Below, piece after piece: positions 19,498-53,831 of a stretch of 63,089 bases of DNA (positions are counted from its first letter, which is position 1; each line of letters opens with the position of its first letter). The DNA comes from a virus: the IMG/VR virus record IMGVR_UViG_3300009703_000017, positions 1 through 63,089 of that record; one strand, given 5' to 3'. The position numbers and the translations under genes are program-made. The notes beneath the pieces are model-generated. The model saw nothing but the letters and a program-made list of their open reading frames with translations, made no database searches and was not told the DNA's origin.

Positions 19498-20646
19498 ATG
19501 GTTACGGAGGGTGTCGGGCGGTTGATGGCCGACCCGCTGCGCTCCGCTTGGTTGACCCTTAAGGGTGTGGAAGAGGACGTGGCGCGCTCAAAATGGTTGC
19601 AGGGTTTGATTGATGAGAAGCGTGATGAAATCGTACAGGAGCGACCTGCGAGAAGGGCTGCTGAGCGGTTGCATGCTCACGATAGAGAGGAGGCCGAGCG
19701 AGAGAAAGCCAAGCGTCTAGAACAGGCGTCTGAGTGGGCTACCGAGGATTATGGAGACGAGTTAGACTATATTCGTCAGATGCGGCAGGAGTATCCTGAC
19801 GAGTACGATGATTGGGTTCACGAGCAGTACGGCCGTGACCCGCTGGCTGAGGAGGATGCTGAGGAAAACCCGTTCGCTGAGGACAAGTCGGGTAGCGATT
19901 TAGAACATTTGCGTCAAATCAAGGAACAGCACCCCGAGGACTACGAGAATTGGGTTCGTATTGAGCACGGTGGCGTAGACCCGTTGAGTGAAGAATCGTT
20001 CGGTGGTTATGCTGGTGACGACAGTGAACCGCTAAGTTTGCTTGGAGGAGGTGCAAGTTCCGGTCGTAGATTGGACCCTGTCACAGGTGAATATGTTGAC
20101 GAAGACGAAGACGAAGACGGAATCAAACCGCTAGAAGCAGGAGCGAGCGTCAGTGATGCTTTGAACCATCCTCGTACCAAACTCTCTCAAGGATTCGTTA
20201 CCGAAGAGCGGTGGAATCCTGAAACAGGTGAATACGAGGAAGTACAAGTCCCTAAAGGTACTGCTGCCTCTGGTAGGGTTGCCGCTACGCGTAGCGCTCC
20301 GAAGGCTCAAGGGAAGGGGGCGAAACGGTACAAGGCCAAGGATTGGGGCGAAGCGGCGTTGTCCGCTCAGCATGGTTTTGCTGAACTGTTGTCTATTATT
20401 GACGGTGGTCGTGAAGTAATGCCGAGCGGTAAGACTCAGCCATTCGTCGCTGGCGAGGCGGGTCAGGCTCATACAGCATTCGCTCCGCCCGCTTTCCCCG
20501 CCCCACCGGGCATGGTGAAGGTTGGGATGCCGAGCGGCCAAGTGACCAAACCTCCTTTTGTCCGAATCATACCTTCAACTACTTTTGATGAAGTTGACCC
20601 TCGTCAGTTAAATTGGCCGCCCGATGCCGAGGAGGGTGATGCCTAA
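19498..20646 (+). CDS. Acidic disordered protein opening the late region
   Basis: 382 aa from the ATG 11 nt after GGAGGGGGG; upstream in-frame GTG/ATG codons (19411, 19426) overlap the divergent gene. Near the amino end is DPLRSAWLTLKGV, a copy of the AWxxLK peptide. Two related Asp/Tyr/Trp segments follow (IRQMRQEYPDEYDDWVHEQY; LRQIKEQHPEDYENWVRIEH), then LDPVTGEYVDED and RWNPETGEYEEV. Highly acidic. Probably a virion or scaffold-associated protein. It overlaps the next gene by one base (TAATG). Confidence 0.72.
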   Translation: MVTEGVGRLMADPLRSAWLTLKGVEEDVARSKWLQGLIDEKRDEIVQERPARRAAERLHAHDREEAEREKAKRLEQASEWATEDYGDELDYIRQMRQEYPDEYDDWVHEQYGRDPLAEEDAEENPFAEDKSGSDLEHLRQIKEQHPEDYENWVRIEHGGVDPLSEESFGGYAGDDSEPLSLLGGGASSGRRLDPVTGEYVDEDEDEDGIKPLEAGASVSDALNHPRTKLSQGFVTEERWNPETGEYEEVQVPKGTAASGRVAATRSAPKAQGKGAKRYKAKDWGEAALSAQHGFAELLSIIDGGREVMPSGKTQPFVAGEAGQAHTAFAPPAFPAPPGMVKVGMPSGQVTKPPFVRIIPSTTFDEVDPRQLNWPPDAEEGDA

Positions 20647-23471
20647 TGTACGTGATTGTGAAAAACGAGGAGGAGAGTTTGGACGAACAGAAATTAGAGT
20701 CCCTAAACGATTTGGTAGGCGTAAAGGACGTCCCGATGATAACTGACCCGCTTGAGGCTCACGAGATTGCTCAGCGCGGTAGCATGCCTTTGATGCCGGA
20801 GGGGACCAAGGGTTGCCCGGAGTGCCAAAACGCTCGGGTTCGTGATTATGTCAAACACCCGCCGCATTTTACTCGGTCGCGTGTTCACGTGAACCACAAT
20901 CCTAGCAAAGAGTCTAATCCTCAACACAGGCGACTACCGGACGGCAGGATGACCAAAGACGACTTGTTTGGTGTTGACGTCCCGCACCCTGACGATGAGG
21001 AGCACAATTCTGAAGGTGGGTGGTTCCATGTAGGCTCATTCGGTAATACTTGGGGTGATGACGGTAAAACTACGCATAGCGCTCCGGGCATGACAGAAGC
21101 ACAGGTGAGGCGTTATCTTGAGTATTTGTTTGAGGACGCTCCCGGTAAAGGGGCATTCTACGATACTGATTTGAACAAAGAGTTGGGTATCGGTCACCCG
21201 AGCACCGGACTTATGGCCCATGACGGGTCTCACCCTCCGCTGACTTGGTTTCATCCGAGAGAGGACAGTTCTTGGGGCGCTAAGTGGAGTCCGCAACATC
21301 AGAACGTGACGAAGACTGTTAAAGACGTTAAAGGTAAGACAAAACGCGTGGGGGTTGTTCCTCTGCTTGACCCTGAAGGTAATCAGATTATTGACCCTGA
21401 GACGGGCAAACCTATGATGGGGAAGGGTAGGGCCGAGCGGCAAAAAGTGGGCAAAGGTGCACGAAAAGGCGGACTTGGTACTGAAACGTTCCCCGATTTA
21501 GGTCGCGCTCTTCGGTTCTATAAGAATCACGTTCTTAATCATAAGCAGGACGCGGTGCAACGCGAGCAGGACTACGCTCTATATCACCCTGAATTACATA
21601 CAGCGCTCTCTAACGGGTTGCGTGTAGGTCAAACACCTTGCACATTGTGTCTCGGTCATGGTACAACCACGGGTAATAATTTGTTGTCGTATCTTGGTGG
21701 TGATGCTAAAATGCAGCGTTATGGTTCGGTTAATTCTCATGCTGACATCGCTGATGGTCAAATGCTAGGTGCTACCGGTAGCGTGGACGAGGCTCATGAG
21801 AACCACGAAGGGGAGCGCTCTACAATCAACCACGAATTGATGGAACATTCCGGTCCGTTCGGTCAAGCGGGTTGGTCTACACCTGAAGACCCGCTGAGCG
21901 ACCTTATGGATAACCCTCATGCTGAATATCTATGTTTGCGGTGTGCAGGTACAGGCGTGTGTTCTACCTGTGGTGGCGACAAGACTATTGATACTATCAA
22001 ACCTAACCAAGACGCCGAAGAATACGCTCAGACTCAGCGTCAGGCTTCCAAGTATAAGCACGCTCATTCTCTAGCGCGACACGGTCAGCCGTTCGGAGCG
22101 GTCAGCGGTCAGCCGTGGTTGCGACCCGGCAAGGTACCGGTAATCGGTGGTGGTGGGGCGATGCAAGACACTCCGTCGTTCCTTCAAACCGAACCCGGTG
22201 AAGGGCAGTTTGGCCTGCGCGAGCAATTCGTAAAACCACCGCAGCCTCAACGACAGACAGTGGGTGTCCGTCACGGCCACCCGAAGCAGTATAAACCCGA
22301 ATTAGGCTCCGGTACAGGATTCGCTCCGGCTACTCATCCGGGTACGATGGCTGCTTCGTTGCCACTAAAACCCGAAACTCCGTACGGTCCTGCTGACAAA
22401 ATGTCGTTCGCTCAACTTATAGGGAGCGGTCTATATCCTGAAGGAGCGACCGGTGTCGGTAATGAAGATGTTACCCATCCTACCGACCCGCTCGGTACTA
22501 TGAATTGGGTAAAGGTTGTTGACCCGGAGACAGGTGAAGAGACTTCTCGGTTGGAGACGAGCGGTGGTGTGTTGAACTTACCCGGTGGGTTAGAACATTG
22601 GGCAGGCCGCGGCGCTCCTACGTTTGATACCGCGGCTACTCATGGTGTTCCGAGCGCTCAAACTCCAATCCCTCTACCTGTTCAGTCCGAGGTACCCGTG
22701 CCTAGTCAGATTCCGCCCCCTCAACCTGTTGAACAAGAACCCGAGATTGATTACTACCACCAATACGAGTCTAATGACAAGCGAGGGTTCACCCTTGATG
22801 AGAACTTCAAGACTCCTTTTGAGCAAAGTGATATGCATGCTTCTAAGTGGGAAGGTACCGATATACCAACTCATTATCAGTACCCGAAGAAGGATTTAAT
22901 CGGTTGGGATTCTGCTACCGGGTTGGACCCTGAGCAGGTGCATGCGGGCTGGGAAGAGTCTTTGGGCAGGCTTGATAGGGGCGCTGAATATCTTGGGATG
23001 GACAAAGACCAAGTCAACGAAGAGAAGACTAAGATTTGGCAGGAAATGATGAGCCATTATAGGTCGGCAGAGCGCGCTGAACAGAAGTTTGTCCGTTCGC
23101 AGATTTACAGACGCCCGAACGATGTTTGGTCTGACCCCGGTGAGAGATTTATGGATGCTGCTTTGAAAGGTCATCAAGATTTGGCCGAACTGTATGAGAA
23201 AAGTGGAAGTGAAGACATACTAACTTCCCCGATAGCCGAACGCGCTCTATATCGTACAATCAAGAGCATTCATCCTGATTGGGAACCGAGCGAAGACGTT
23301 GAAACTCTTACGCCTCGCGAAGAGTTAGTCGGTAAAGGGGAACCGATAGATGTAGCATGGTCTATACTGAAATCTTATGCGACAGACAGGCATAGGGGTA
23401 GACGGGCCGGGGGCGTACGACAAATTGCGTCCTTGTCGTCTCTCAACTACCCGCCCTCGGTCCACCTTTGA
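20646..23471 (+). CDS. Large late protein with DnaJ-like zinc motifs
   Basis: 941 aa. Residues about 57-62 hold GCPECQN; about 331 CTLCLGHG; about 433-446 CLRCAGTGVCSTCGGD. This CxxCxGxG spacing is like the DnaJ zinc finger, though no J-domain is seen. Much of the rest is Gly/Pro/His-rich and probably unstructured. Near the end is EPIDVAWSILK, another copy of the AWxxLK peptide. The last 27 residues look non-protein-like and overlie an RNA-structure-prone stretch. Likely a virion or assembly protein; family unknown. Confidence 0.72.
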   Translation: MYVIVKNEEESLDEQKLESLNDLVGVKDVPMITDPLEAHEIAQRGSMPLMPEGTKGCPECQNARVRDYVKHPPHFTRSRVHVNHNPSKESNPQHRRLPDGRMTKDDLFGVDVPHPDDEEHNSEGGWFHVGSFGNTWGDDGKTTHSAPGMTEAQVRRYLEYLFEDAPGKGAFYDTDLNKELGIGHPSTGLMAHDGSHPPLTWFHPREDSSWGAKWSPQHQNVTKTVKDVKGKTKRVGVVPLLDPEGNQIIDPETGKPMMGKGRAERQKVGKGARKGGLGTETFPDLGRALRFYKNHVLNHKQDAVQREQDYALYHPELHTALSNGLRVGQTPCTLCLGHGTTTGNNLLSYLGGDAKMQRYGSVNSHADIADGQMLGATGSVDEAHENHEGERSTINHELMEHSGPFGQAGWSTPEDPLSDLMDNPHAEYLCLRCAGTGVCSTCGGDKTIDTIKPNQDAEEYAQTQRQASKYKHAHSLARHGQPFGAVSGQPWLRPGKVPVIGGGGAMQDTPSFLQTEPGEGQFGLREQFVKPPQPQRQTVGVRHGHPKQYKPELGSGTGFAPATHPGTMAASLPLKPETPYGPADKMSFAQLIGSGLYPEGATGVGNEDVTHPTDPLGTMNWVKVVDPETGEETSRLETSGGVLNLPGGLEHWAGRGAPTFDTAATHGVPSAQTPIPLPVQSEVPVPSQIPPPQPVEQEPEIDYYHQYESNDKRGFTLDENFKTPFEQSDMHASKWEGTDIPTHYQYPKKDLIGWDSATGLDPEQVHAGWEESLGRLDRGAEYLGMDKDQVNEEKTKIWQEMMSHYRSAERAEQKFVRSQIYRRPNDVWSDPGERFMDAALKGHQDLAELYEKSGSEDILTSPIAERALYRTIKSIHPDWEPSEDVETLTPREELVGKGEPIDVAWSILKSYATDRHRGRRAGGVRQIASLSSLNYPPSVHL

Positions 23472-23492
23472 GCGGTATCCCCTAAAGGGGAT
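23396..23492 (+). terminator. Structured 3' region and terminator-like hairpin
   Basis: GGGTAG/CTACCC (23396/23447) encloses ACGACAA/TTGTCGT (23417/23433). Just past the stop, TATCCCC-TAAA-GGGGATA (23475-23492) is a perfect 7-bp hairpin. No oligo-T follows, so partial termination or mRNA end protection is as likely as full stop. Confidence 0.5.
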
Positions 23493-23533
23493 AAGAGTTC
23501 TAATGATATTGGGTTAATCGGAACGACGCTCTT

Positions 23534-24100: not shown

Positions 24101-24106
24101 TGGAGA

Positions 24107-27909: not shown

Positions 27910-28337
27910 AAGCAATCAGTATCTCCACGCTCACCTGTGATGATATTGGACATAGCGGCATTCTGCGTGACCGTGGGGCTATGAACGATGTGGAACTTGG
28001 GTTATTTCTTGGTCTGATACGAGATGTGATAGACCGATGGTACGAGGCGATTGGGGAGTATGGGCCACCTGTATACGCTCGGTATCATGAACACCGATTG
28101 CTATTAGACGGTATTATAGAACTATTTGATAGAATCCAAACAGTTGATGAGCCGCAAGAGGCGTTCAGGTACAGGCGTGAATTAAGACAGTCTCTCAGTC
28201 AGTTCAAAACATTGTGCGACGAACTTGCTATGCCGTTTAGTTCTCCTCACTACGTCCGTGAGTTCTATATGAATCTCCATCGTCGGCTTGTCGGGACGTA
28301 CGAGCGAATCGTGGAAGGTGATGACGAATGCCAATGA
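27906..28337 (+). CDS. Helical late protein, 143 aa
   Basis: TTG at 27906 overlaps the upstream TGA (TTTGA); the ATG at 27981 (MNDVELGLFLGLIRDVIDRW) is an alternative start. All-helical, acidic (EYGPPVYARYHEHRLLLDGI). No domain recognised. It overlaps the next gene by ten bases. Confidence 0.63.
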   Translation: MKAISISTLTCDDIGHSGILRDRGAMNDVELGLFLGLIRDVIDRWYEAIGEYGPPVYARYHEHRLLLDGIIELFDRIQTVDEPQEAFRYRRELRQSLSQFKTLCDELAMPFSSPHYVREFYMNLHRRLVGTYERIVEGDDECQ

Positions 28338-29593
28338 CTTCAGGTGGCTCGGGCGGAACGAGTGGATTGCGGTATAACCCGCGAGAGACTGCTGGTGATG
28401 AGTTAGGTTATGGTGTATCGCATACCGCTTACAATCCTCGTGATTCTGACGAAAAGCAGAACGATTTGGACGACAAGCGTGACAAAAGGGAAAAACGTGA
28501 CCGAGCGAAAGCGGGTATCCAGCACTTGAAAGTCAAAGTTAAGAACGTAAAACGCGAACTAAACGAAGCGCAGAAGGAGACAGGTGAACTGTCCGACCTT
28601 ACAGGACCGGCAGGTTCGCGCGGTGGCGACTTAGACAATGCAGTCGGTACCATGACCGGCACCGGTTCAGCGATGGGTGGTGGTGTCGGAGCGGTTCCGC
28701 CCGAACTTCCCGGTACTGGTAATTTCGGTCAAGGTGGAGCGTTCGTTAGAGCGTTTGATGTTCTTAAACGCGAAGACACTGAAACTCTTGAATCAACTCG
28801 GTCTAAACTGCGAGGCGGGAAGGCGAAACGACACAAGAAGCATGGGTTTGTAGAAAGTCATAGAAGACAGCGTGGCGGTAAACGGCTAAACGTTTCGTTC
28901 CGTGACCCGAAGAAGCGAGCCGGGTCTCATGTTAGGCATAGAGTTCACTATAACCCGCGACACGGGGCAATCAGGCCACGAGTGACCGGGCCACTGTTCA
29001 GGGGTGTAGGAGGACGGCGAGCGCATATCGCTATGCCTGACCCACGTCAGCGTGAAGCGCGACTTACTCAACGGTATATGAGTCAGGAAATGCCGCAGGC
29101 TTTACCGTACACCGCTCCAATGCGACCAATGACTCCGACAGCCACGCCTCAGCGGTACGGGCGTCCTCGTAGTAAGCGGGGCGACGACCGCCCATCTGCT
29201 TTGCTGGGTCCTAAGCAGATTAAGCAGCCTCGTACCGCTTCTACACCCATGGGTGCCGGGTTCGGGACAGGTGGTACTTCGCCTCTCGCTCTTAGTGAAG
29301 ACGTAATGGAACTTGACGGACTTCTTCTGAAGTTCTTTGCAGGAAAAGCCAAGATTCGTCAGGCCGATGTTGCTGAGTTCAAACAGTTATTACGCGATGC
29401 CAAGAGATTGCTCAGTCAGTTGAAGAAAGGGTATGACGTTGGCTGTGGTGACGACGCTGAAGGTCCGTCACCGCGCGGTCACAACAAACAGACTTCCGAC
29501 CCGAAGGGTGCAACCGAATCTGACCCGGAAGACGATGCCACTACTTGGGGGGCGCACTCATACGGAATCGTAGCAAGGAGAGGACAACCTTGA
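28328..29593 (+). CDS. Basic disordered late protein with AFDVLK peptide
   Basis: 421 aa. A highly charged coiled region (about 38-85: DEKQNDLDDKRDKREKRDRA), a Gly-rich linker, FVRAFDVLKRED at about 138-149 (a Phe variant of the AWxxLK peptide), then an Arg/Lys/His/Pro-rich stretch (GKAKRHKKHGF; RKHR-type runs) that could bind DNA, a helical part near 330-375 and an acidic tail. Possibly an internal head protein. Family unknown. Confidence 0.67.
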   Translation: MPMTSGGSGGTSGLRYNPRETAGDELGYGVSHTAYNPRDSDEKQNDLDDKRDKREKRDRAKAGIQHLKVKVKNVKRELNEAQKETGELSDLTGPAGSRGGDLDNAVGTMTGTGSAMGGGVGAVPPELPGTGNFGQGGAFVRAFDVLKREDTETLESTRSKLRGGKAKRHKKHGFVESHRRQRGGKRLNVSFRDPKKRAGSHVRHRVHYNPRHGAIRPRVTGPLFRGVGGRRAHIAMPDPRQREARLTQRYMSQEMPQALPYTAPMRPMTPTATPQRYGRPRSKRGDDRPSALLGPKQIKQPRTASTPMGAGFGTGGTSPLALSEDVMELDGLLLKFFAGKAKIRQADVAEFKQLLRDAKRLLSQLKKGYDVGCGDDAEGPSPRGHNKQTSDPKGATESDPEDDATTWGAHSYGIVARRGQP

Positions 29594-31335
29594 GAGTTTT
29601 AGTGAGAGGCACAAACGTTTCGCTCATTAAAGGGCAAGGAGTGGTCGCTCAGTTCCCCGATACAGGCCAGTCTTTCATTCTCGCTCGCGAGCATGCAGCG
29701 AAACCCGGTGCTAACTACAACCCGTTCTTCCATGACCCTCGCACGGGTGATGTTCGTACTGATATTGAACATAAGTGGCCGATGGAGGCGCTACGCGACG
29801 AAATCGCTCGTGATGTCATGGGAAAACACAACTTAAGTAGCCATGATGCATTGAAAATGGCAGAAGACGTGATAAACGGCGGACATAATCAGTTTAATGA
29901 TGAACATCACGACAAAAATCATCATCTTAACCCGGTATTTGATAAAAACGGTAACCTGCATCCTGATTACGCTCATGTTACAGTTACGCCTGAATATCAA
30001 GGGCATGATGTTGATACTCACGACCGGCGTACCAAAACTGAAGACGGACGACAAGTGAACTTCTTTGCGAGAGCGAAAGAGCACGAAGAGTTCGGGCAAC
30101 ACGCGGAAAGCGGTACAAACTTCGCTTACAGGCAAATGCAGGCGCAGGCGCAAGAGTTGTTGGGTTACGTTCCTTCAGTTCTCAAGAAACCGCATATTGA
30201 ACCCGGTACAATGACCAATAATCACGTGTATAGACATCAAAGTACAGGACCGGGGCCGGGTGAACACGTTACGCGACCGGTCCAGCGAATGCACAACCAA
30301 ACGCGAGGGTTACCAGCAGCCGACCCGTTCAATATCTTGTTTGGTGAAGGAGATTCGCCTAAACTACCGCCTGCCTTTTGGGAGAAAGCGGGTAGCGGTG
30401 TTCCTAAAAAGCAGAAAGAGAGATTGAGTGAAGAATATGGTATCCAAGACCCCGAATTATTGGACAATATGGCAGGGTCCGCTGTCGGGCAACTGCTAAT
30501 CGGGCAGGGACGAGGCAGACTAGAATCTTTGATAGGTGATTTATCTCGCAGATTAGATATTGGTGGCAAAAACGCTGAAACTTATAACACAATCCACTCA
30601 CACGTTCAGACTAATCCTGAATGGAAAGGACGCGGAGCGAAAAAGGGGCGAGAACTCGCTGCTTTACTGTTCACCGCTAACCAAATAGGAGACGACCTGT
30701 CTGATTTCGGGTCGTGGGACAATGTCAACGAGGGGGTAGTAGAGAATTGGGCTAAAATAGCACCTGTTGTCGCTGAAGAGCGTGGTGGTGGTCAACCTTT
30801 CGATTGGGGAGCGGCTATGCCTGACGAAGTTCACCATTCCGCTCAGCAACCGATAGAACCGGGTGAAGACGAGCATGCTATGGAATTGCACTCTCTTGCA
30901 GGTCTCGCTCCGCGCGAACTTGAAGCGCTTTCTCGTGAACCGCCTGCTGATAGGATACCAATACCGGTCCCTCAACAGGCTGCGCCCGAACCTGTCGCCC
31001 CACCTGCGCCTGAACAACAGTTTGCTTATACTCCCCAACCTGTACCTCAAATGATTTATCGGTCTGACGACCCTGCTTCTCGTATTCTTAAAGCGATGGA
31101 GGAGATTCAGTTGGCTGACGCACGAAAGAGTATAGAGGTAAGCAAACACTTACCCAACTACGATAGTCTCAGTGTCAATAATACCAACGACGTTTCGCTC
31201 ATGGCGAGTAAACTCGGTCTTACTAATACAGACGTTTTAGGGTTGTATTCAGCCACAGGTGACTGGCATCGCGTAGCGAAAGTGTTTCAAGTAACACCCT
31301 CTGTGGTCGGAGCGGTAAAGGTGGTGTTCTCGTGA
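29590..31335 (+). CDS. Late protein, 581 aa, His-rich middle
   Basis: Start taken at the TTG overlapping the previous TGA (TTGA), giving MRVLVRGTNVSLIKGQG; an in-frame ATG 15 codons upstream lies inside the previous gene. Residues 85-120 are His/Asn-rich (NDEHHDKNHHLNPVFD). A later stretch reads DRIPIPVPQQAAPEP, then MIYRSDDPASRILKAMEEIQ. The C-terminal 60 residues look like a small helical HTH-type domain (MASKLGLTNTDVLGLYSATG). Probably a virion protein; no family recognised. Confidence 0.67.
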   Translation: MRVLVRGTNVSLIKGQGVVAQFPDTGQSFILAREHAAKPGANYNPFFHDPRTGDVRTDIEHKWPMEALRDEIARDVMGKHNLSSHDALKMAEDVINGGHNQFNDEHHDKNHHLNPVFDKNGNLHPDYAHVTVTPEYQGHDVDTHDRRTKTEDGRQVNFFARAKEHEEFGQHAESGTNFAYRQMQAQAQELLGYVPSVLKKPHIEPGTMTNNHVYRHQSTGPGPGEHVTRPVQRMHNQTRGLPAADPFNILFGEGDSPKLPPAFWEKAGSGVPKKQKERLSEEYGIQDPELLDNMAGSAVGQLLIGQGRGRLESLIGDLSRRLDIGGKNAETYNTIHSHVQTNPEWKGRGAKKGRELAALLFTANQIGDDLSDFGSWDNVNEGVVENWAKIAPVVAEERGGGQPFDWGAAMPDEVHHSAQQPIEPGEDEHAMELHSLAGLAPRELEALSREPPADRIPIPVPQQAAPEPVAPPAPEQQFAYTPQPVPQMIYRSDDPASRILKAMEEIQLADARKSIEVSKHLPNYDSLSVNNTNDVSLMASKLGLTNTDVLGLYSATGDWHRVAKVFQVTPSVVGAVKVVFS

Positions 31336-38666: not shown

Positions 38667-39187
38667 AACCGATTAAAGTGAATGCAGGCGAATGGAGCGA
38701 ATATGAGGACCTTCTTGCTAAGGCTAAGGAGATGGAAGAGAAATTAGAGAAGGCTAACACCGAGACTGATAATAGCGAATTACGCGATGTCCGTGGTGTA
38801 GAAGAAGTTAGACCTGCCCACTATTGGACTAATCAGCAATTACCCGACCATCCTGAAACCGTTAACCGGTGCACTCCTGAAGCGGAGAGTTACCGGTTCC
38901 GTGAAGCGAACCCTCACTCTGACGACGGGGCATGGTCGGCACATATGACTGATGGCGGCGGGGACCGACCTGCCGGTATTACTAACGAAAAAACCCTATT
39001 TGGTAAAGCGGATATGTGCGCTTGCGGCGACTGTCCCGCTAAAGACTGCACTTGCTCTTCAGGTTGTGACGAGTGTAAATGTAATAGGGTAAAGAAATCT
39101 CAATTACTTGGCGCGTGGAAAGAGGACGACCCGTTTGTCTTACAAAATATCGCTGAACAGGCTGAATCTCTCACTCGTCGTCTATGA
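38663..39187 (+). CDS. Late protein with eight-Cys metal cluster
   Basis: 174 aa, ATGA overlap. A helical start (EYEDLLAKAKEMEEKLEKAN), an extended middle, then eight Cys in 22 residues at 119-140 (CACGDC, CTC, CDECKC words), and a short helix at the end. The density resembles metallothionein-like or multi-zinc clusters. Function unknown. Confidence 0.7.
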   Translation: MKPIKVNAGEWSEYEDLLAKAKEMEEKLEKANTETDNSELRDVRGVEEVRPAHYWTNQQLPDHPETVNRCTPEAESYRFREANPHSDDGAWSAHMTDGGGDRPAGITNEKTLFGKADMCACGDCPAKDCTCSSGCDECKCNRVKKSQLLGAWKEDDPFVLQNIAEQAESLTRRL

Positions 39188-42100: not shown

Positions 42101-45066
42101 AAGACGCCAAGCATCTGAATAATACTCACGGTGCTATCGCTCAACTTCTACCACCACTCAAAGAGTTTGTAGAAAAACGTAACCCCGATGTATTCAAACC
42201 GGAGATTGACGAAGACGGTATGGAGAATTGGAACAGGGCCAATGTCGCTTACATGAAGTTGTGTGAAATCGCAGAACGTTACATTCTCAATCATCAGACT
42301 CCTGAACAGAACGCCAAGTTCGGACTGAAAGATGGCATTATGAGCGTTGAACCGTTACCTGTCATGGGTCAACCGCGCGCTAATCATGACCAAGATTTAC
42401 ACGACCGAATCGCAGATTACGTGTCAAAGGGTAACAAAAGCATGATGAGTTTATTTCACGAGTTCCTCAACGATAGTTCACCTGTGTTTAGTCCCGGGTC
42501 TATACCGGTCCCTACACCAGAGGGTGTAGAGAAACCACCTGACCCTCGCGAGATTGCGCGCGGAGTCCTACATCACGCTGTCGGGCGACTGAAAGCGCAG
42601 AAATCTAACCCTAATCTTGCGGCAGAAGAACATGGGGTGAGAGGAGCAAAGGTTGGTGCTAAAAAGTCTCGTAGTGCTGAAAATTGGATGAAATATGTAG
42701 CAAAGGAGACCGATAGCATGAATCACCAAGATATAGCAAAAGAGATTCGTGATAATCCTAATAACATATTTGATTCTCTGTTTGATAGACACCCTATCAG
42801 GCAACCTGAACTTAAAGAAGGGCAGACTATAGTAAAAGAACCTCGTATAAATGGAGTATCGCGAGTATACAAGCATAACGCTGCTGATGAAACAGCAGCA
42901 CTGAACAGCGTATGGCGCGATTTCAATAACACCTTGCATAAGACAGGGTTTAGATTCGGTGAAACTCCTAAGAGACTGAAAACAGGACAAGGGGGTATAG
43001 GCGGTGGGGCGCAACGCGCTATGAGGCAAACTAGAAAAAAGGGTATTCTAAAAGACAAAAATAAGATTTTTAGGAAACTTTTGACACCTATTGCTGAGAG
43101 TCAAAAGCAGATAGTATCGCAACAGCAACTACCTCTACAACGCTCAAACGCCGGTACTCAAACTGTTCAGCCCGCCTATACATCACCTGCCATGACTCGG
43201 CATCATGGTCACGCAATACGCGCTCCGTTTGATATTACCTTTGACCACGCTACAGGCCAACCTCAGTTCTTAGATTTGAATGATTTGAGTCACGCTGTCA
43301 CTCAAGATGCGCTCGCTCCACCACTGTCTCTCATCCGTGATACCGTAGAGCCGAACATTGAACCGATGCATACTATCGGGCCGGCGGCTATACAGTCTAT
43401 GACCCGGTATATTGACAGCGCTGGCTCTCATGCTAAGTCATGGGCGTTACCGCATCACGCTAAACATACTGCAAAACGTGATAAGTTAAGGGATAGTGAC
43501 TTATTCCAAATGGGCGAACCGTTACAATGGCTAACCAATCTCAATCTTCTGTACAAGGAAGATGATGATAGAGAGAAGGGTGAAACTCCCGCAATTAAAG
43601 CCGCTCACAGAATCTTTGATTTAGGAGATTTGGAGAACCTGCGCGGGTTCAGTGGTAGTTGGGTTGTCAGCGTATGGCCCGAAGGAGAGCGAGTTCTTAT
43701 AGAGAAAAAGGACGGGAAAAGTAAGACCAAGAACGATGTCGCCGTGAGCGCGGAAGCGCTAGACGACCTCAAGAAGGTGAACGAAAAGGATTTCGTGATA
43801 GATTGCGTTTGGGACGGGACCGCTCTTTGGGTAATGGATTTGCTTAAAATCGCTACCGAGGACGTGGTAGAGGAACCGCTGAAACACAGAATGAGAGTAC
43901 TGCGCGGTACATTTGAGTCTACTGAGCACGTGCATACGCCTCAGCCTGTGAACACTCGTGCTACTGACGATGAAGGATTAGAAGCAGCGATTGGGGAACT
44001 TGAGGGTGATAGAATCATGCTACGAGACGCTGAGTCTACCTATATGGAAGGCGAGACACGGCATCCAAAATGGGTATTAATGGATAATGAGAAGCGCGTT
44101 AGCGTCATAGTTCTTGGGATTAAGGGTGGTGATTACCGAATTGGCATAGGTCCGATTACTGATGAGGCTGCTGATTCACTCGGTAACCGCTCAGATACTC
44201 ACAATAAGCGCAAATATATGGAAGTAGGAACGGCCACCGATGGTAGTAAGAGCGACCATAATTGGGAAGTTGGTGATTTTGTAGTAGTTACTGTCGGTAG
44301 CGCTACTAAAAACGAGCGTGACGGAGCGGAAGTATATTCACTGAACGGGGCTAAAATCATAGGTCCGGCAGAATCACAGGCGACCGACAGTTCGGAATCA
44401 GTAGAATTGCTGACAAAATCAGGTGTACCTGCCATACCGCACCGCGTGGTGGTGGAAGGTGATACAATCACCGTCAGCCTACCATGGAGTGATGACGAAG
44501 TATTGTACAAAACTACTGAACAAGGCGAGGCGTGGAGATTGGCGGCAGGACAGTCTTCACAAGATATTGCACATTCGGTCAGAATATCCAATACTCTCAA
44601 GCCGTGCTGGTCGCCTGTTGCAGTTTTAATGCTGAAAGAGAAAGTAGCAGCAGATTATGACCCGCGCCCGTACCTGCACGAGAAAAAGAAGAAGGCGGAA
44701 GTGGAGCCCGACCCACGACCTGAAGATAAGAAACCGAAGAAAGTTGACGAAAATCAACTACTGAAAGACCCTGTGGTACTCAAAGCGTTACTTATTCTAG
44801 AAGAAATGCTTACTAAAGAGAAAATGACGTGGACCGGACCGAAGGGATTAGCGATAGGGTTAGGCACAGAGGATGCCGCTCCGCGCGGGCCGACTGAATT
44901 AGAAAAACCTGAAACGCTCCCTGATTTCTCACCCGGTGAGGATGAGCGCTCCAAAGAGAAAACCCCGAAAACCGGCAATAAAAGCGCGATTACTACCGAA
45001 GAAGGGGAGAAAGCAACGCTTCGCGTGAACGATGACGAAGCAGTGTTAGAATTACGAGCGGATTAA
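39184..45066 (+). CDS. Giant virion protein with dead DNA-ligase-like domain
   Basis: 1,960 aa, the largest gene here, between portal and protease genes. Residues 1-1470 match no family I know; they are polar, with many short helical segments. From about 1480 the sequence follows ATP-dependent ligase motifs in degraded form: VWPEGERVLIE at 1497-1507 where ligases have K-x-D-G-x-R (the lysine position is Trp1498), DCVWDGTALWVMDLL (motif III/IIIa), DRIMLRDAESTY from 1609 (motif IV), KWVLMD (motif V). An OB-like segment follows (NWEVGDFVVVTVGSATKN). Without the lysine it cannot form an enzyme-AMP. Likely a structural or DNA/nucleotide-binding role in the head. Confidence 0.75.
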   Translation: MNGGEGIKEDARAFWKRSRFEFVKSLYHDCNEDDASELLLAALDGDRRGTPVTKSDLVLLDRAVAIIKEAGGRDRAYPTEESGYQHQPGDEPSTVRRQGWAPPIPSASLKPHVGRKGYEKVLEVGSTSDINRVLDLMSSGRPETQAVEHTSDNVRPDKHPVEGLGLFAQRHAVLPSSQMQGILRHLYRDGGAQEFDEGLDSHENKHSNHPHHRDTVFGRHTGNIGLGALHQRESERLANSYEKEFGKPMDDPEAMVHAAKTLEWEGYDFRQFLDEDGNFPQSNQELLDLVRDKGLKRDPEKQLGVMGWLGATEMMSPSMRRNTMKWIADGRPSEAKEYFGTEARDMVPFLNRQIAVRLSRLVNKARAGPTSHGNIVNAPEHSGKVVQDIDSADSGQAILDALTNLQVHSGTGEFSHHGAEEAGTHSAYEEILRRSAHEGMDIGSLLIPHFDEEGNRVDYINEGDKEKDSHSQQKYLSPGHINNYVDNGWLDNSVRHKMFSEGVVGQYENEVKGNQAMRDYLSPLTHGTDTFTHMFDLGGGGMGHHDDSVKYWLDEMFPGIVTQPHSSSYHISMPDIDTEDKTQEERFQDFSGMFDDFISEEGEIPRFERELREESPGPWGIMEPEAGMSHAQSVWPTANLDTNTPGFLAQQSDDRAKQRYARGSLSGNTYRSRFPNQMTRGALFGQFARGLDEDDELPNAYRIPISSLANKIAKDDFGAVGHAPRVGADKMGVQNDRQRAIMLTEAGLRGDAPLDRKVPTQTPASPTQDYMGNLNVYSLNDPFGKQANLAQLQNLYDGEVEGHEPWNPDYPTFDPRAFYIQGDEGRLTDTSRDEVGQFLNTRASERFGNFTQGQLWGDETNPRGQVKVHGVTGSKEPADTANLDPSLFHSINLDDGQKVFASYENPADLARYYLETLQERYDALGKNPDLKDKRQGIESAMERQQEIVDDLDKEYYPLSVLEKSNEHNRRMVEDAKHLNNTHGAIAQLLPPLKEFVEKRNPDVFKPEIDEDGMENWNRANVAYMKLCEIAERYILNHQTPEQNAKFGLKDGIMSVEPLPVMGQPRANHDQDLHDRIADYVSKGNKSMMSLFHEFLNDSSPVFSPGSIPVPTPEGVEKPPDPREIARGVLHHAVGRLKAQKSNPNLAAEEHGVRGAKVGAKKSRSAENWMKYVAKETDSMNHQDIAKEIRDNPNNIFDSLFDRHPIRQPELKEGQTIVKEPRINGVSRVYKHNAADETAALNSVWRDFNNTLHKTGFRFGETPKRLKTGQGGIGGGAQRAMRQTRKKGILKDKNKIFRKLLTPIAESQKQIVSQQQLPLQRSNAGTQTVQPAYTSPAMTRHHGHAIRAPFDITFDHATGQPQFLDLNDLSHAVTQDALAPPLSLIRDTVEPNIEPMHTIGPAAIQSMTRYIDSAGSHAKSWALPHHAKHTAKRDKLRDSDLFQMGEPLQWLTNLNLLYKEDDDREKGETPAIKAAHRIFDLGDLENLRGFSGSWVVSVWPEGERVLIEKKDGKSKTKNDVAVSAEALDDLKKVNEKDFVIDCVWDGTALWVMDLLKIATEDVVEEPLKHRMRVLRGTFESTEHVHTPQPVNTRATDDEGLEAAIGELEGDRIMLRDAESTYMEGETRHPKWVLMDNEKRVSVIVLGIKGGDYRIGIGPITDEAADSLGNRSDTHNKRKYMEVGTATDGSKSDHNWEVGDFVVVTVGSATKNERDGAEVYSLNGAKIIGPAESQATDSSESVELLTKSGVPAIPHRVVVEGDTITVSLPWSDDEVLYKTTEQGEAWRLAAGQSSQDIAHSVRISNTLKPCWSPVAVLMLKEKVAADYDPRPYLHEKKKKAEVEPDPRPEDKKPKKVDENQLLKDPVVLKALLILEEMLTKEKMTWTGPKGLAIGLGTEDAAPRGPTELEKPETLPDFSPGEDERSKEKTPKTGNKSAITTEEGEKATLRVNDDEAVLELRAD

Positions 45067-45093: not shown

Positions 45094-46482
45094 GTGAGCG
45101 CAAGTGCAGTCATGGCAACCACGCAATCTCCGCTCCTCCTCAAGGGGATTGGAGACGACCTTATTATCGCAGGGTACGCCAGCGTTGAACTCGTTGACAA
45201 ACAGGGCGACCTTATCACCAACGGAGCGCTCGGTAAAGCATTCAACGGGTTCATGGACAACCAAAAATGCAGGAATGTCCAACTCGCTCACTCTAATATC
45301 CAAGTCGGGGAGGTTATCCCCGAGTACACAGATTCTTCCGGTCGCTTGTGGAAGTCCGAAGTTGATGACAGCGGAATGTTTGTCGTCATCCAACTCCGGT
45401 CCGACATTGAAAAAGCGCGCGAAGTCGCAGCCGAGATACGAAAGGGTAATCTTAAGTCCTTCAGTATCGGAGGCCAAGCGTTTGAGCGAGTGAATAAAAG
45501 TGACAGGGAGAGAGGAAGTTACCGGGAAATAAGCCGAATGGAGTTACATGAAGTGACAATCTGTGAAAAAGGAATAAACCCGGAAGCCCAATTTAGAATA
45601 CTAAAACAGGAGACAGAAAATATGACAGAAACAGAAGTTGCAGCACAACTGCACGATGTATTAGAGCGTTTGTCTAAGAAGTTGGATGGTGAGGATATGA
45701 CAGCGAAAGGTGAACTACCACCCGCGCTCGCAGAAGCCTCAGAATCCAAGTCAAAAGACAAAGAGAGTAAGGATGAGAAGAAAGACGATAAAAAGTCCGA
45801 TGACGATTCCTCAGACGACGAGATGGAGAAAGGTTTTGATGACGTCATCACAACTGATTACCTAAATTGGATGGAGAATACCCTAAAATCGGCAGGAGTA
45901 GATACTTCTGCTGCACGCGCGCACTTTGACGGTGTGGCGAAAGGGTACGGCCCCGGGGAGTCAGGATTTGACCACCGTGGACAAGGTTCAATTGAAGGTG
46001 CAGGTGAAGAAGACTCAAAGAAACGTCCAAAAATGGATATGGGCAGTGGTGGAGTGAGCAACAAGTTCGCTATCCGCGCAAGCGCAGACCCAGCACCTAC
46101 CGGTAACAAATACGTTATCAAGGAAAATACCTCAGCGGCAGAACTTGAGAAGGCTTACGAAGTCTACAAGCAAGCACGCTCAGAACAAGAGTTCAAGGGT
46201 GAACTTGGTGAACAATTCAGCGCTCGCTACGAGCAAGAACTAGTTGCTAAGTCTAACGAAGAAGAGCGACAGTCCTTTGACAGTCGTGAACCACTTGAGC
46301 AGATTCAGAAAGCGGTTGCCGCTCTTAATGAGCGTATTAGCAACCTATCATCAGACTCCGGTGAAACCATCACAAAGAGCGCGACTCAAAAACTGGCTCG
46401 CGTACCATCCAGCGTTGAACTCGCTGAGATGAGTTGGGATGACGTGCACCGATTAGCAAACAAAGCAATACAAGGAGAGTGA
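45094..46482 (+). CDS. XkdF-like prohead protease fused to scaffold
   Basis: 462 aa from GTG; the ATG at 45112 is an alternative start. Residues 20-180 fit the S78/XkdF-type protease: GYASVELVDKQGDLITNG, LAHSNIQVGEVI with His66, and LKSFSIGGQAF with the Ser at 122 or 124 as nucleophile. Residues 190-462 are charged and helical (KDKESKDEKKDDKKSDDDSS; LEKAYEVYKQARSEQEFKGE), a scaffold. It ends EMSWDDVHRLANKAIQGE. It would scaffold capsid assembly and then trim head proteins. Directly upstream of the capsid gene. Confidence 0.83.
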   Translation: MSASAVMATTQSPLLLKGIGDDLIIAGYASVELVDKQGDLITNGALGKAFNGFMDNQKCRNVQLAHSNIQVGEVIPEYTDSSGRLWKSEVDDSGMFVVIQLRSDIEKAREVAAEIRKGNLKSFSIGGQAFERVNKSDRERGSYREISRMELHEVTICEKGINPEAQFRILKQETENMTETEVAAQLHDVLERLSKKLDGEDMTAKGELPPALAEASESKSKDKESKDEKKDDKKSDDDSSDDEMEKGFDDVITTDYLNWMENTLKSAGVDTSAARAHFDGVAKGYGPGESGFDHRGQGSIEGAGEEDSKKRPKMDMGSGGVSNKFAIRASADPAPTGNKYVIKENTSAAELEKAYEVYKQARSEQEFKGELGEQFSARYEQELVAKSNEEERQSFDSREPLEQIQKAVAALNERISNLSSDSGETITKSATQKLARVPSSVELAEMSWDDVHRLANKAIQGE

Positions 46483-46487
46483 AATTA

Positions 46488-47624
46488 ATGGCAAGAGATT
46501 ACGTACGAACAATACAGGATATGGAGCGCTACTACTACGGTGGTAACGCTCTGACCGGATACACATACAGTAGTGGTGATATACTCAAAGCAGATGCACC
46601 GCTATTGAGTACCACAGCAGGTACTTACCAAGCAATCTATGGCCGCAAAGTGTGGTCACAACTTAACCAAGAGTTCAATGCTTTTAGCATTCTACCTAAG
46701 AAGCCATGGGAAAAGAGCGGTTGGAGAATCATCACCGCTAAGCCTTCGTTCGCTAAGGGCGGTGGTGTTGCAGAAAATGCTGCACTTCCTGAGACTACAA
46801 AACCCGATTTCCTACACGTGGCAGCAAAGCCAAAGAGCATCGCTCATACCTTTGACTTGTCAGAAGTGGCTATGTTCTTGTCCGATAAGGACGATGGAAT
46901 GGGCGATGTGCGCCAAGTCCTCAAAGAGGAAATGGGTAAGCACCACGCAGACCACATTAACAGAATGTTAACCGGCGATGTTGATACCCCGGCAGGCAAC
47001 GACTTTGAGTCGCTTGACCGTGTTACCTCAGACCCTGACAACATGACAGCAGCAACTACTCACGTGAGCGCTAACACTGACCACGATATGTACAGCATTA
47101 CTCGTGACGGTACTGCGGATTTCCACAGTGCAGAAGTTAGCGTTGATGCAACAAGCACCAACCGCGCTCTAAGTCTAGATTTCCTTGATGCGTTGTTCCA
47201 ACAAGTTTGGACTCGTGGTGGTAATCCGAAAGTCTTGCTAACTGGCTATGATACACTGATGAATGTTCAGCAGTTACTACAAAGTCAACAGCGATTCATG
47301 GAAACCAAGAGAGTTACTCCATCATACAACGGTGTGAAAGGTGTACCGGGTATTGAGGCTGGATTTATTGTCAGCACATACAACGGTGTCCCAATCATCC
47401 CAAGCAAAGACGTAGTGACAGATGGTAGCAGTCGTATCTATTACCTTGATACTGACTACTTGTGGTTCCAAACAGCGATTCCAACCCAATACTTTGAGAG
47501 TGGAATTGAAACCGGTGACCCGTTCGCAATTAACAGACTTGGTCAAGAAGGACTTTACCGAACAATGGGTGAACTATGGTGTTCTTTCTTCGGCTCACAA
47601 GGGAGCATTCGTGACCTAAGTTGA
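46488..47624 (+). CDS. Major capsid protein (HK97 fold)
   Basis: 378 aa from the ATG (MARDYVRTIQDMERYYYGGN), 8-10 nt after GGAGAG. It follows the protease-scaffold gene as in HK97-like viruses. FNAFSILPKKPWEKSGWRII resembles the P-domain entry, and the C-terminal half (YNGVPIIPSKDV; QEGLYRTMGELWCSFFGSQG) resembles the closing strands of such capsid proteins. No large delta domain beyond a short amino arm, in keeping with a separate scaffold. Forms the icosahedral shell. Confidence 0.85.
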   Translation: MARDYVRTIQDMERYYYGGNALTGYTYSSGDILKADAPLLSTTAGTYQAIYGRKVWSQLNQEFNAFSILPKKPWEKSGWRIITAKPSFAKGGGVAENAALPETTKPDFLHVAAKPKSIAHTFDLSEVAMFLSDKDDGMGDVRQVLKEEMGKHHADHINRMLTGDVDTPAGNDFESLDRVTSDPDNMTAATTHVSANTDHDMYSITRDGTADFHSAEVSVDATSTNRALSLDFLDALFQQVWTRGGNPKVLLTGYDTLMNVQQLLQSQQRFMETKRVTPSYNGVKGVPGIEAGFIVSTYNGVPIIPSKDVVTDGSSRIYYLDTDYLWFQTAIPTQYFESGIETGDPFAINRLGQEGLYRTMGELWCSFFGSQGSIRDLS

Positions 47625-48915: not shown

Positions 48916-49197
48916 ATGTCGCATTACACGGTACAAGACCTTGAACGCATGGAGCAGCAAGGATGGCGAAAAGCGGAATCAGTAGGCGCGGGCAGCGTCA
49001 GTGATTCAGAAGACCCCCTGAAAGGCGTTATCCAAAAACAGCAGACCCGTACACGCAACTTACGTGATATTGTAGATATAGGGAGCGGTACACGGTGCGC
49101 TCACTGTGGTATGCTACACTTCTGTTGGCTTGAGCGCTGTGGAGCGTGCAATAAACCGATGGATTATAATTTAGGTACAGTGAGGGATGCTCAATGA
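48916..49197 (+). CDS. Zinc-ribbon late protein, 93 aa
   Basis: MSHYTVQDLERMEQQGWRKA, a helical first half. A four-Cys site near 61-80 follows: CAHCGMLHF, then CGACNKPM. ATG preceded by GAGGTG. Ends in an ATGA overlap with the next zinc protein. Function unknown. Confidence 0.7.
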   Translation: MSHYTVQDLERMEQQGWRKAESVGAGSVSDSEDPLKGVIQKQQTRTRNLRDIVDIGSGTRCAHCGMLHFCWLERCGACNKPMDYNLGTVRDAQ

Positions 49198-49577
49198 ACG
49201 AAGGGTGGGAAACCTGCACGGCACCGGGTTGTAATTCAGCATGCGCTCCTAACGAGAAGTTTTGTGCTGTGCATCGTGAAGCGTTCAATCGTTCTTATCC
49301 GTTGGAGAAAGCGTGGTTATTTCTTAAGCAAGCGTATAGGGGTAATGAAGAAGACAAGAGTAGAGCCGATGAGCAGGCTTCTATGTGGCGTAAACTGCAA
49401 CAAGAGCAAGGGCGACAAAGACAGCAGAGTCGGATGGAAGGGCCTGTATGCGATTTATGTCGTGTGAATCCTGCTATAGACGAATGGCACGGTGATAATA
49501 TCTGTGAAGAATGTCATACCGCTATGCTTAATCAGATGCGAGCGGCCCACGGATTACCGCCGGGGGAAAGCCAATGA
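49194..49577 (+). CDS. Double zinc-site protein with central AWLFLK peptide
   Basis: 127 aa. Residues 8-26 give C-T-A-P-G-C, a further Cys, then CAVH. YPLEKAWLFLKQAYRG (about 35-50) is a copy of the AWxxLK peptide. CDLCRV and CEEC near the end make a second zinc site. The combination of zinc site and peptide recurs in the 36-aa gene at 53,721. Confidence 0.7.
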   Translation: MNEGWETCTAPGCNSACAPNEKFCAVHREAFNRSYPLEKAWLFLKQAYRGNEEDKSRADEQASMWRKLQQEQGRQRQQSRMEGPVCDLCRVNPAIDEWHGDNICEECHTAMLNQMRAAHGLPPGESQ

Positions 49578-50683
49578 ACCCAATAGATATTGCATGGTAT
49601 TTCCTTAAAGCGTGGCCGGACCCACCCGAAGAGGGTGAGAAAGAGCGATTTCCTATGAGCCACCTACCTCTTACGCATTCTGCGCGTAAGCGCCATAGGA
49701 ATCAAGCAGCGCGTACCAGTGGGATAGAAGGCTTGGAAGGCACGATGCCGCCGGAGTTCAGTAGTGATATAGACGAGCAAAATAAGATAGCAGACGACCT
49801 TCATGATGCGGAACAAAAACGGCGTGATGCGAAGGCTCGCCTCGGCGGAATGCCGGAGGGTGCAGAATGGGATGAATTGCATGAGGAAACAAAGGACGCG
49901 ATGGACCCTGTCTATGAAGGTGGAGCGTCCGACCACTACGAGCGTGTGCCTACCGACAAGAGAGAGATGAGGCCGGAATTAGAACCATTTGAACGCGATG
50001 AAGCACTCGCGGGCGAAGGCGCTGAAATGCCCGACCCGCACGAATTAGAACCGGAGATGCGAGGCGATTCGGTGAAAGTTCGGCGCCGAAACAGGCGATT
50101 CGGTCGCGAGTGGGGCGCTCAACCGTTTTTGGACATGTTTTCGCGAGTGGGAGTGGACCTAAATAGGCCCGAAGTACCGCACGGGTACGAAGAAGAAGAA
50201 GAGCCGGAACCCAGCCTTGAGTCAGCATGGAGAGAAATTACCGGTAGCGGAGGCACTGTCGCAGACGAATTAGAAGAACATCTAAGACCGGCCGAAGAAA
50301 AAGAGCAGCAGGCCCAAGAGGAAGAATCACAGTTGAATGAAATGGCGAGACAAATGGGTGAAGAAGCGGGAGATTATTTCACAGAAGGCGCAGAAAGGAG
50401 TGAACCGAATACCTACGCTAATATGTCTACCGATGAACTCAGAAATGTGTATATCCCGATGGCGCAACAATATGACAGTATGTCAGACGAAGAACGGGAA
50501 GCGGACCCTGATTTTATGGAAAAACTTGAGGGGGTACGACAAGCACTGCGAAGCGCGGAATGGAATGAAGGACAAAATAAACCGCCTATTACCCAATCTA
50601 CAAGAGCGAGACCCACTCGCAGTGGCAGGCGCGGTGGTGTTAGAGTACAACCACGAAGAGGGCCACCACGAAGAGGTGAATGA
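49574..50683 (+). CDS. Acidic late protein starting MNPIDIAWYFLKAW
   Basis: 369 aa, ATGA overlap. The amino end is the AWxxLK peptide itself. The remainder is Glu/Arg-rich and largely disordered, with helices near 270-330 (STDELRNVYIPMAQQYDSMS). The end is Arg/Pro/Gly-rich (RRGGVRVQPRRGPPRRGE), which could touch DNA. Candidate internal head or connector-associated protein. Confidence 0.68.
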   Translation: MNPIDIAWYFLKAWPDPPEEGEKERFPMSHLPLTHSARKRHRNQAARTSGIEGLEGTMPPEFSSDIDEQNKIADDLHDAEQKRRDAKARLGGMPEGAEWDELHEETKDAMDPVYEGGASDHYERVPTDKREMRPELEPFERDEALAGEGAEMPDPHELEPEMRGDSVKVRRRNRRFGREWGAQPFLDMFSRVGVDLNRPEVPHGYEEEEEPEPSLESAWREITGSGGTVADELEEHLRPAEEKEQQAQEEESQLNEMARQMGEEAGDYFTEGAERSEPNTYANMSTDELRNVYIPMAQQYDSMSDEEREADPDFMEKLEGVRQALRSAEWNEGQNKPPITQSTRARPTRSGRRGGVRVQPRRGPPRRGE

Positions 50684-50686
50684 TAA

Positions 50687-52584: not shown

Positions 52585-52585
52585 C

Positions 52586-53728
52586 ATGACTGCTATAGAA
52601 CGGGCATGGTCGGTGCTGAAAGGCGACCCGAATATGATGGAACCTGCGGCTACACTATCTGCGGAGGGCAACGAAGACACGATGAGAGACGCTATGCAAC
52701 AACCAAAGGATTATCTTTCCAGTTACGGCCAACCTGCGCAATTCAAGAATGTGATGGGTGGGGGTGACCCTGACCCCCAACAATTCCCTGAAGCGGGCAA
52801 GTTTGGGTCAATAGACCGCGACATGGTTGCTCAACGGCGACGAGACGCTATGCTAACAAAACCGGGATATTCACAGTATGACCACCGCATGAACATGAAA
52901 CCGCGTGAGAAAGTGGAACGTGAAGGTGGGTTCTTCACAGATGATAGCAAGGGCAGCGAATGGACAGCAGCCAACAGGCAACCTGCGCAAAATTATATGG
53001 GCGGGCGTTCGTCGAATGAGATTGATATTGGTGATGGTCAAACAGGTTATTTCAATATCGCGCACCCGAGTGGGCATCGCAGCACGGCTGAAGTGGGTCA
53101 TGACCAAAAAACCATTCATCCTCAAGCAGCGAGCATGGCTGCGCGAGCAGGTGCAGGTGGCCCCACTCGTTGGGTCCAAAGAATGAGTGCCGAAAACGAG
53201 TATTTACCGCCAGCCGATAAGGACATGCCTGAATCTCACACTATTTCAGATAAGGATTATGATGAATGGAGTGGGGTCTTGAACAATAAGGGGATTGATG
53301 AACGATTTCATGGATTGGCAGAAGAAGCATTACGCAATCTCCATCAAGAAGGCACTGTTTATCGTTCCGCAGAAGAGAAGCAGCAGGCTATAGACAATGC
53401 ACTTGGGCGCTTTCAGACGTGGAATACGGACTATGACAGAACGCAAAATTGGAAGGATTTGGCCGCGCAGAAGTGGGGTGGATTCAAGCAAGGGGCGCGT
53501 GATTTGTGGGACAATGTGTCAGGCACTACGCGCATTCATCGAGACGATTTCCCCCCTCAACAAGAAGTCCAAGAAGAGCGCGCGTTTGACCAGCCTTACG
53601 ATTGGGACACTAAATTGGCCGGTGAGCCAATGGACATTGCGTGGATGGTGTTGAAAGAAGATATGCAACGCAAGTTTGAAGCACTGCGCACTTTAGCGCA
53701 ACAACAAGGGGGCGCAAGAAATGAGTAA
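52586..53728 (+). CDS. Late protein with AWxxLK peptides at both ends
   Basis: 380 aa from ATG 52586 just past the previous stop; the frame is open further upstream, but that part is antiparallel to a real gene. It begins MTAIERAWSVLKGDP and near the end carries EPMDIAWMVLKEDMQRKFEA. Between them is a Gln/Gly/Asp-rich, probably disordered chain. The only protein here with the peptide twice. Confidence 0.7.
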   Translation: MTAIERAWSVLKGDPNMMEPAATLSAEGNEDTMRDAMQQPKDYLSSYGQPAQFKNVMGGGDPDPQQFPEAGKFGSIDRDMVAQRRRDAMLTKPGYSQYDHRMNMKPREKVEREGGFFTDDSKGSEWTAANRQPAQNYMGGRSSNEIDIGDGQTGYFNIAHPSGHRSTAEVGHDQKTIHPQAASMAARAGAGGPTRWVQRMSAENEYLPPADKDMPESHTISDKDYDEWSGVLNNKGIDERFHGLAEEALRNLHQEGTVYRSAEEKQQAIDNALGRFQTWNTDYDRTQNWKDLAAQKWGGFKQGARDLWDNVSGTTRIHRDDFPPQQEVQEERAFDQPYDWDTKLAGEPMDIAWMVLKEDMQRKFEALRTLAQQQGGARNE

Positions 53729-53831
53729 ACCGCTAAACTATGCTTGGGATTTGCTAAAGGCAAAAGATTGTCCTAAGTGTAAAGATGGTAAGTTAGACAA
53801 GGCTGGTATGTGCAAAATGGGCTGTGCGTGA
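53721..53831 (+). CDS. 36-aa protein: AWDLLK peptide plus zinc knuckle
   Basis: MSKPLNYAWDLLKAKDCPKC begins with the AWxxLK peptide. CPKCKDGKLDKAGMCKMGC then supplies four Cys (CxxC...CxxxC). Nothing else is present. The start overlaps the previous gene by 8 nt and the stop is 2 nt before the next ATG, so it is translated in the chain. It suggests that peptide plus zinc site is a minimal functional unit. Confidence 0.65.
   Translation: MSKPLNYAWDLLKAKDCPKCKDGKLDKAGMCKMGCA

Follow-up and report, generated by a model that had tools for sequence, protein, structure and literature searches.

The late genes and their recurrent peptide

The window analysed here, a 63-kb viral record (IMGVR_UViG_3300009703_000017, positions 1 to 63,089), encodes in its late genes a short recurrent peptide built on the core A-W-x-x-L-K, hereafter called the tag. 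Two lines of evidence place the window among the magroviruses, tailed viruses of Marine Group II/Poseidoniales archaea. One is its gene content, with matches to phrog_24667 (capsid), phrog_18178 (portal) and phrog_38 (terminase); the other is that relatives of its capsid protein include one from a Poseidoniales single-cell genome. These magrovirus-type genes are present in the conserved order. The major capsid protein of this family (46479–47624, plus strand; phrog_24667, E = 2e-61; SU10_MCP) has hundreds of close relatives among viral contigs, one of which is 100% identical and lies on a 107-kb contig; the single-cell relative, at 64%, is in Candidatus Poseidoniales AG-422-I20. The AG-422-I20 contig (L237; G050:C2) carries the magrovirus capsid gene together with two tagged genes, which supports the assignment of the host. 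Magroviruses are themselves uncultured; judged by the capsid protein, the cultured relatives are haloviruses, for example HVTV-1 (35% identity).

Nine copies of the tag had been proposed in a sequence-only reading of the window, and all nine peptides are encoded, on the plus strand, at or beside the places it gave. For a broader comparison, 13 magrovirus genomes were used, namely the window and twelve relatives (91–100 kb of each), one of which, the Poseidoniales record G050, is 72% masked. Genes of the relatives were called by codon usage, and a tag profile was trained on the resulting gene sets. With this profile, eight of the nine copies are strong (16.9–33.2 bits); the ninth is degenerate and falls within the noise.

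The copies are distributed as follows. DPLRSAWLTLK (19531–19563; 16.9 bits) occupies residues 3–13 of the gene at 19525–20646 if the ATG at 19525 is its start, and EPIDVAWSILK (23340–23372; 31.9 bits) lies near the C terminus of the product of gene 20646–23471, at residue 899 of 941. The degenerate copy, GAFVRAFDVLK, listed originally as RAFDVLK (28736–28768; 8.0 bits, alone not significant), is in the conserved core gene 28328–29593, the orthologues of which bear one to three good tags. A variant with one extra residue, DAIDHAWDYLLK (32598–32633; 20.9 bits), is found at the C terminus encoded by gene 31332–32642, just upstream of the terminase gene; its AWDYLLK core is not the outlier it was first taken for, as this form recurs among relatives as a second form of the tag. 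YPLEKAWLFLK (49296–49328; 20.4 bits) sits between two Cys clusters of a 127-residue protein (49194–49577), and NPIDIAWYFLK (49577–49609; 29.4 bits) forms residues 2–12 of an acidic, probably disordered protein (49574–50683). Gene 52586–53728 has two tags, TAIERAWSVLK at residues 2–12 (52589–52621; 23.2 bits) and EPMDIAWMVLK near the C terminus (53624–53656; 33.2 bits). Finally, KPLNYAWDLLK (53727–53759; 26.7 bits) makes up residues 3–13 of a 36-residue, four-Cys protein (53721–53831), which is as originally described. Thus, four or five copies start at most three residues from a likely start codon (ATG 19525 for the first gene), three are near a C terminus and one is at residue 35 of 127.

The structural proteins of the window do not carry the tag. 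It is missing, as had been claimed, from the terminase, portal, capsid and tube proteins, and likewise from the tape-measure protein. The genes concerned include those for the terminase large subunit (32645–34039) and the portal (35707–37572), which, with the conserved gene between them (34039–35535), form an untagged plus-strand block spanning 32645–37572.

Enrichment and conservation of the tag

Across the six reading frames of the window, A-W-x-x-L-K occurs eight times, seven times in genes and once as an antisense chance match at 48790, whereas each of the 23 permutations of its A, W, L and K letters occurs once or not at all. Over 80 capsid-related loci the count is 88, compared with 28 for the next permutation (LAWK) and at most 13 for any other. 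An unbiased count of four-residue gapped patterns (span 5–8) in the 13 genomes ranked AWxxLK first, with 42 protein families against one in reversed proteins, and the tag profile gave 130 matches above 12 bits against two in reversed proteins. The letter permutations and the reversed-protein controls rule out a chance origin, one of the outcomes on which the proposal could have failed. A C-terminal SVGVR peptide carried by a handful of proteins was unremarkable in the same count, and a chaperonin initially placed in the tagged set had been matched falsely by the profile (16.6 bits, at an internal site).

The consensus of the tag is [E/S/N]-P-[M/F/I/L]-[D/E]-x-A-[W/F/M]-x-[L/I/V]-L-K. The second form, A-W-[S/D]-x-L-L-K, is found in orthologues of the core gene 28328–29593 and in the window gene 31332–32642. 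A literature search under several spellings of the motif returned no report of it. Constraint is concentrated on the consensus residues: in a comparison of 1,849 tag positions (alignments of at least 60 columns, partners taken regardless of whether they carry the tag, pairs not independent), identity at P, A, W, L and K was 82, 83, 76, 86 and 77%, respectively, against about 45% in the downstream flank, 35–40% in the upstream flank and, at the free residue preceding the Ala, 23%. The codons for the Ala, Leu and Lys vary, which excludes an element acting at the DNA level and indicates that the tag is a protein-level signal.

Restriction to magroviruses

A strict DNA pattern for PMDxAW(R/S)LLK had no match in 84,980 prokaryote genomes. 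Within the host order, a strict pattern had none in 146 genomes and a loose pattern none in 142; the tag is therefore not mimicry of a common host motif, and for the patterns tried a host origin is ruled out, a second outcome that could have told against the proposal. It was also not found in the late half of the halovirus HVTV-1, so it is not a property of all relatives of the capsid protein. The methanogen virus vir519 has a single match, which appears fortuitous.

Fifty records (49 found through the tag, plus the host contig) were examined for their affiliation. The magrovirus capsid gene is present in 37, and four more have the terminase gene or the core gene 29545; the remaining nine are covered over 55–91% of their length by untagged magrovirus homologues. 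In scans with strict patterns, none of the matches listed belongs to another virus group. On these sequence comparisons, the tag is a lineage-wide system of magroviruses carried by dozens of otherwise unrelated late proteins.

Position of the tag in proteins and genomes

Among 366 tagged proteins, which form a redundant set, the tag is N-terminal in 241 copies, starting mostly at residue 2 or 3, C-terminal in 25 and internal in 168. Internal copies are usually preceded by G/S-E and separate modules of roughly 100–170 residues; the largest number in one protein is eight, in a 1,191-residue product (G035:43-3618).

The tagged genes are confined to one part of the genome. The head-morphogenesis region, from 34 kb upstream to 7 kb downstream of the capsid gene, holds 89 of 93 of them (hypergeometric 1e-33, although the genomes are related and this is hence no clean probability), and 92 of 95 are on the strand of the capsid gene, compared with 600 of all 1,250 genes. 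They occupy syntenic slots: upstream of gene 25102, the orthologue of 28328, both sides of the terminase gene and the interval between the capsid and tube genes. Throughout the magrovirus genomes, the terminase, portal, capsid, protease, tube and tape-measure proteins are without the tag, and a single orthologue of gene 38292 (in G030) scores weakly for it. The terminal bias, the restriction to the head-gene region and the viral rather than host origin predicted from the window alone are all borne out.

Domains of the tagged proteins

The domains attached to the tag are diverse. A search of 110 representatives against Pfam identified DUF5872, DUF6321, HD_4, YAcAr and GNAT, each in one to four proteins, and the tagged set also includes zinc-bearing and highly basic proteins. 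The HD_4 proteins with an N-terminal tag (L200:1574-2023 and four relatives) resemble (p)ppGpp hydrolases, an unexpected cargo for an archaeal virus. One 75-residue domain, SPEAxRHK, is found behind an N-terminal tag in proteins of 88–94 residues, behind internal tags in polyproteins, and elsewhere untagged; the copy in the window (SPxALRHKxxY...NRAR; 18199–18462, minus strand, in gene 16744–19470) is untagged, and it is tagged in several relatives. We saw an HNH resemblance in this domain, but with no match to its model in the Protein Data Bank (PDB) we leave it unnamed.

A structural model was obtained for a further tagged family, YHGT, from a seven-sequence alignment (pLDDT about 81–90 over the core, residues 31–120). 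The best PDB matches found by Foldseek are KptA/Tpt1 phosphotransferases, poly(ADP-ribose) polymerases (PARPs) and other ADP-ribosyltransferases (ARTs), with modest scores (best E = 3e-4, TM about 0.4), and the family is predicted to adopt an ART fold; L183:2721-3191 encodes an ART-like cargo protein. In this model, the tag forms a separate helix (residues 3–14) at low confidence.

Candidate cleavage sites and a second motif

At the last position of the tag, Lys accounts for 321 of 365 copies and Arg for a single one, even though these proteins contain more Arg than Lys overall; about 12% of copies have the Lys substituted or displaced. The residue after a Lys is Ala, Gly or Ser in 41% against 22%. 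Similar candidate sites are found in other proteins of these genomes. The sequence (E/D)-(I/L)-L-K-(A/S)-D is invariant near the N terminus of the capsid protein in these genomes (46578–46595 in the window) and is a candidate maturation-cleavage site; K-A-D is retained at the equivalent place in the HVTV-1 and HCTV-1 capsid proteins. The S78 prohead protease (45094–46482, plus strand; Peptidase_S78), which has a C-terminal scaffold-like extension, has hhK|(G/S/A) before its protease domain in almost every genome (LLLK|G near the N terminus in the window, 45130–45147), and most gene-38292 proteins have a similar hhK|small site before their tail. The HK97 protease cleaves its capsid protein between K103 and S104 (PMC10275583). 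As a pattern, hydrophobic-x-Lys-small is loose; [IVLM].K[SAG] occurs 758 times in late proteins against 511 expected, and 440 times in early proteins against 384. The Lys-small bias, together with the similar sites in the capsid protein, the protease and gene 38292, suggests that the tag may end in its own S78 prohead-protease cut site.

The protease/scaffold protein and the product of gene 38292 share a second motif at their C-terminal ends: in 12 of the 13 genomes, the exception being the masked G050, each finishes with M-x-W-x-(D/E)-(V/I)-H-x-(L/M)-A or something close to it. In the window, these are MSWDDVHRLA at the C terminus of the protease/scaffold protein (46429–46458) and MDWSDIHALA near the C terminus encoded by gene 38292–38666 (38565–38594), both on the plus strand. 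This motif may serve both proteins as a scaffold tail for binding to the capsid protein; if so, magroviruses would use two short-peptide codes in head assembly.

Other features of the window were noted in passing. The interval between the portal and protease genes holds a conserved 1,960-residue protein (39184–45066) with a weak, below-cutoff match to a DNA-ligase domain at residues 1500–1630. A 274-residue protein on the minus strand (286–1110) resembles by eye an archaeal sliding clamp (PCNA) and has no Pfam match. Early minus-strand proteins (286–9266) contain recurring alternating Ile-Pro or Val-Pro runs, such as IPIPIPIPIP in gene 7794–9266, VPIPIP in 1510–3378 and IPIPVP in 286–1110.

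A model for loading of tagged proteins

The sequence-only reading had proposed that a single docking peptide is shared by unrelated late proteins. A single peptide of docking type is indeed found across such proteins; the virion residence and the common partner that the proposal also entailed are matters of inference. We consider that the tag is probably a prohead-targeting, or cargo-loading, signal of magroviruses, resembling the capsid-targeting sequence (CTS) of phage T4. This is the best explanation on hand, drawing on genomic context, analogy and the content of the cargo. What the sequences provide is the tag itself, its enrichment, its restriction to the late region and to one lineage, its modular reuse and the predicted folds of its cargo; from these we infer docking inside the head, packaging, delivery and cleavage.

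According to this model, the short amphipathic helix [E/S/N]-P-h-[D/E]-x-A-W-x-h-L-K would jut out from the cargo and dock on a single conserved part of the head as it assembles. In small proteins the tag would be N-terminal, and in large ones C-terminal or repeated between modules, in which case several effector domains would share one polypeptide. The cargo (ART-like, HD, GNAT and zinc-domain proteins and basic proteins) would share the head with the genome and, on release into the next cell, modify that host early in infection. The near-invariant Lys and the small residue after it could serve as a cut site for the S78 prohead protease, by which the cargo would be detached, or its modules separated, at maturation.

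A bolder version, that the tag is a universal plug-in address with a built-in protease site, such that any domain bearing it, whether by itself or within a polyprotein, is loaded, cut free at maturation and injected, is conceivable but on balance doubtful. If it were true, the injected effector repertoire of magroviruses could be read from sequence alone, and, to our knowledge, no capsid-targeting code shared among proteins would have been described before in an archaeal virus. One cargo-marking peptide would bring dozens of hypothetical proteins together as candidate effectors carried in the virion, a set both defined and open to testing; it would also extend capsid targeting by a shared peptide beyond T4-like phages and would offer a simple handle by which chosen proteins could be loaded into a viral shell.

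Several observations weigh against prohead targeting. HVTV-1 has a related capsid protein and a prohead protease and yet has no tag; if the partner is the capsid protein, its binding site must have arisen within the magrovirus line. The T4 CTS is N-terminal, whereas the magrovirus tag is also C-terminal and internal. A location in the late region is compatible with any late function, no conserved cleavage motif extends past the Lys-small step, and the models of tagged proteins derive from shallow alignments, with the ART match reaching a TM score of only about 0.4.

Alternatively, the tag could be mainly a processing signal, recognized and cut by the S78 prohead protease so as to trim small proteins and split polyproteins, with loading achieved by other means. 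The almost exclusive use of Lys followed by a small residue, the like sites in the capsid protein, the protease and gene 38292, the even spacing of tags in polyproteins and the greater excess of the loose pattern in late than in early proteins are all consistent with this. However, a Trp-containing helix far exceeds what the other candidate sites have, cutting at residue 2 or at an extreme C terminus would achieve little unless the tag itself had a job, and the Lys is dispensed with or displaced in the minority of copies noted above; processing as the main role is unlikely. It is also quite improbable that the tag gathers late proteins on a DNA-packaging or head-completion hub (the terminase, portal or connector) or on a scaffold without their being retained in the virion. 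Tagged genes are interspersed with those for the terminase and portal, several tagged proteins are zinc-bearing or highly basic, and most genomes also carry the tag in the core gene that separates a small-terminase-like gene from that for the terminase, but ART, HD and GNAT domains are difficult to account for as assembly factors.

Binding of the tag to a host protein, such as a chaperone, protease or transcription factor, which would stabilize or localize late proteins, would fit the fact that every carrier is made in the same late phase and that a Trp-Leu helix is a generic docking element. Against it, early viral proteins lack the tag, and its absence from the host-order genomes scanned means that no widespread host motif is being copied; we regard this explanation as very unlikely. 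Least credible of all is a functionless remnant, left by common descent or by a duplicated leader sequence and maintained by recombination: phage genomes are mosaic and one cargo domain occurs with and without the tag, but the key positions are conserved while the intervening ones change at least as quickly as the flanks, the codons vary, and the tag is found at N-terminal, internal and C-terminal places.

Comparison with known targeting systems

A close parallel to the proposed targeting signal is the T4 CTS (PMC7697877), a peptide of about ten residues by which nearly any protein can be packaged and which the head protease cuts off. Like it, the magrovirus tag is about ten residues long and is found on otherwise unrelated proteins encoded in the head region of a tailed virus that has a prohead protease. 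It differs in belonging to an archaeal virus, in occurring up to eight times per protein and in having a Trp-Leu-Lys helix, and in that its packaging and cleavage are putative. In phage P1, DarB, a large virion protein believed to be injected, has an N-terminal packaging signal (PMC9024508), and the tag is likewise commonly an N-terminal peptide; the authors of that study found no consensus among Dar proteins, whereas the tag has a clear one across dozens of families. Encapsulin targeting peptides are short and terminal, and load unrelated enzymes into an HK97-fold shell to which their binding has been demonstrated (PMC8346489). Encapsulins are cellular, whereas the tag is viral and known here from sequence, and its consensus differs from the encapsulin-type consensus SDGSLGIGSLKRS (PMC8346489).

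The modules themselves recall the polyvalent proteins of phages and conjugative elements, multi-domain effector polyproteins in which ART and GNAT domains are typical, which are believed to be packaged and injected and which in phages are encoded beside head genes (PMC5512222, PMC9503650 and PMC7824862). Their delivery with the genome is, in those accounts as well, largely inferred. Magroviruses similarly encode multi-domain tagged polypeptides beside the portal and terminase genes, and some of the modules have been identified. Archaeal viruses hardly figure in the sections of PMC5512222 and PMC9503650 drawn on here, and these describe no shared short address peptide, whereas the magrovirus modules are separated by one. 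The tag thus appears to be kin to capsid-targeting peptides, with an unusual range of positions and cargo: it also separates the modules of polyproteins, and it is attached to what is, by predicted domains, an enzyme repertoire known from injected phage effectors.

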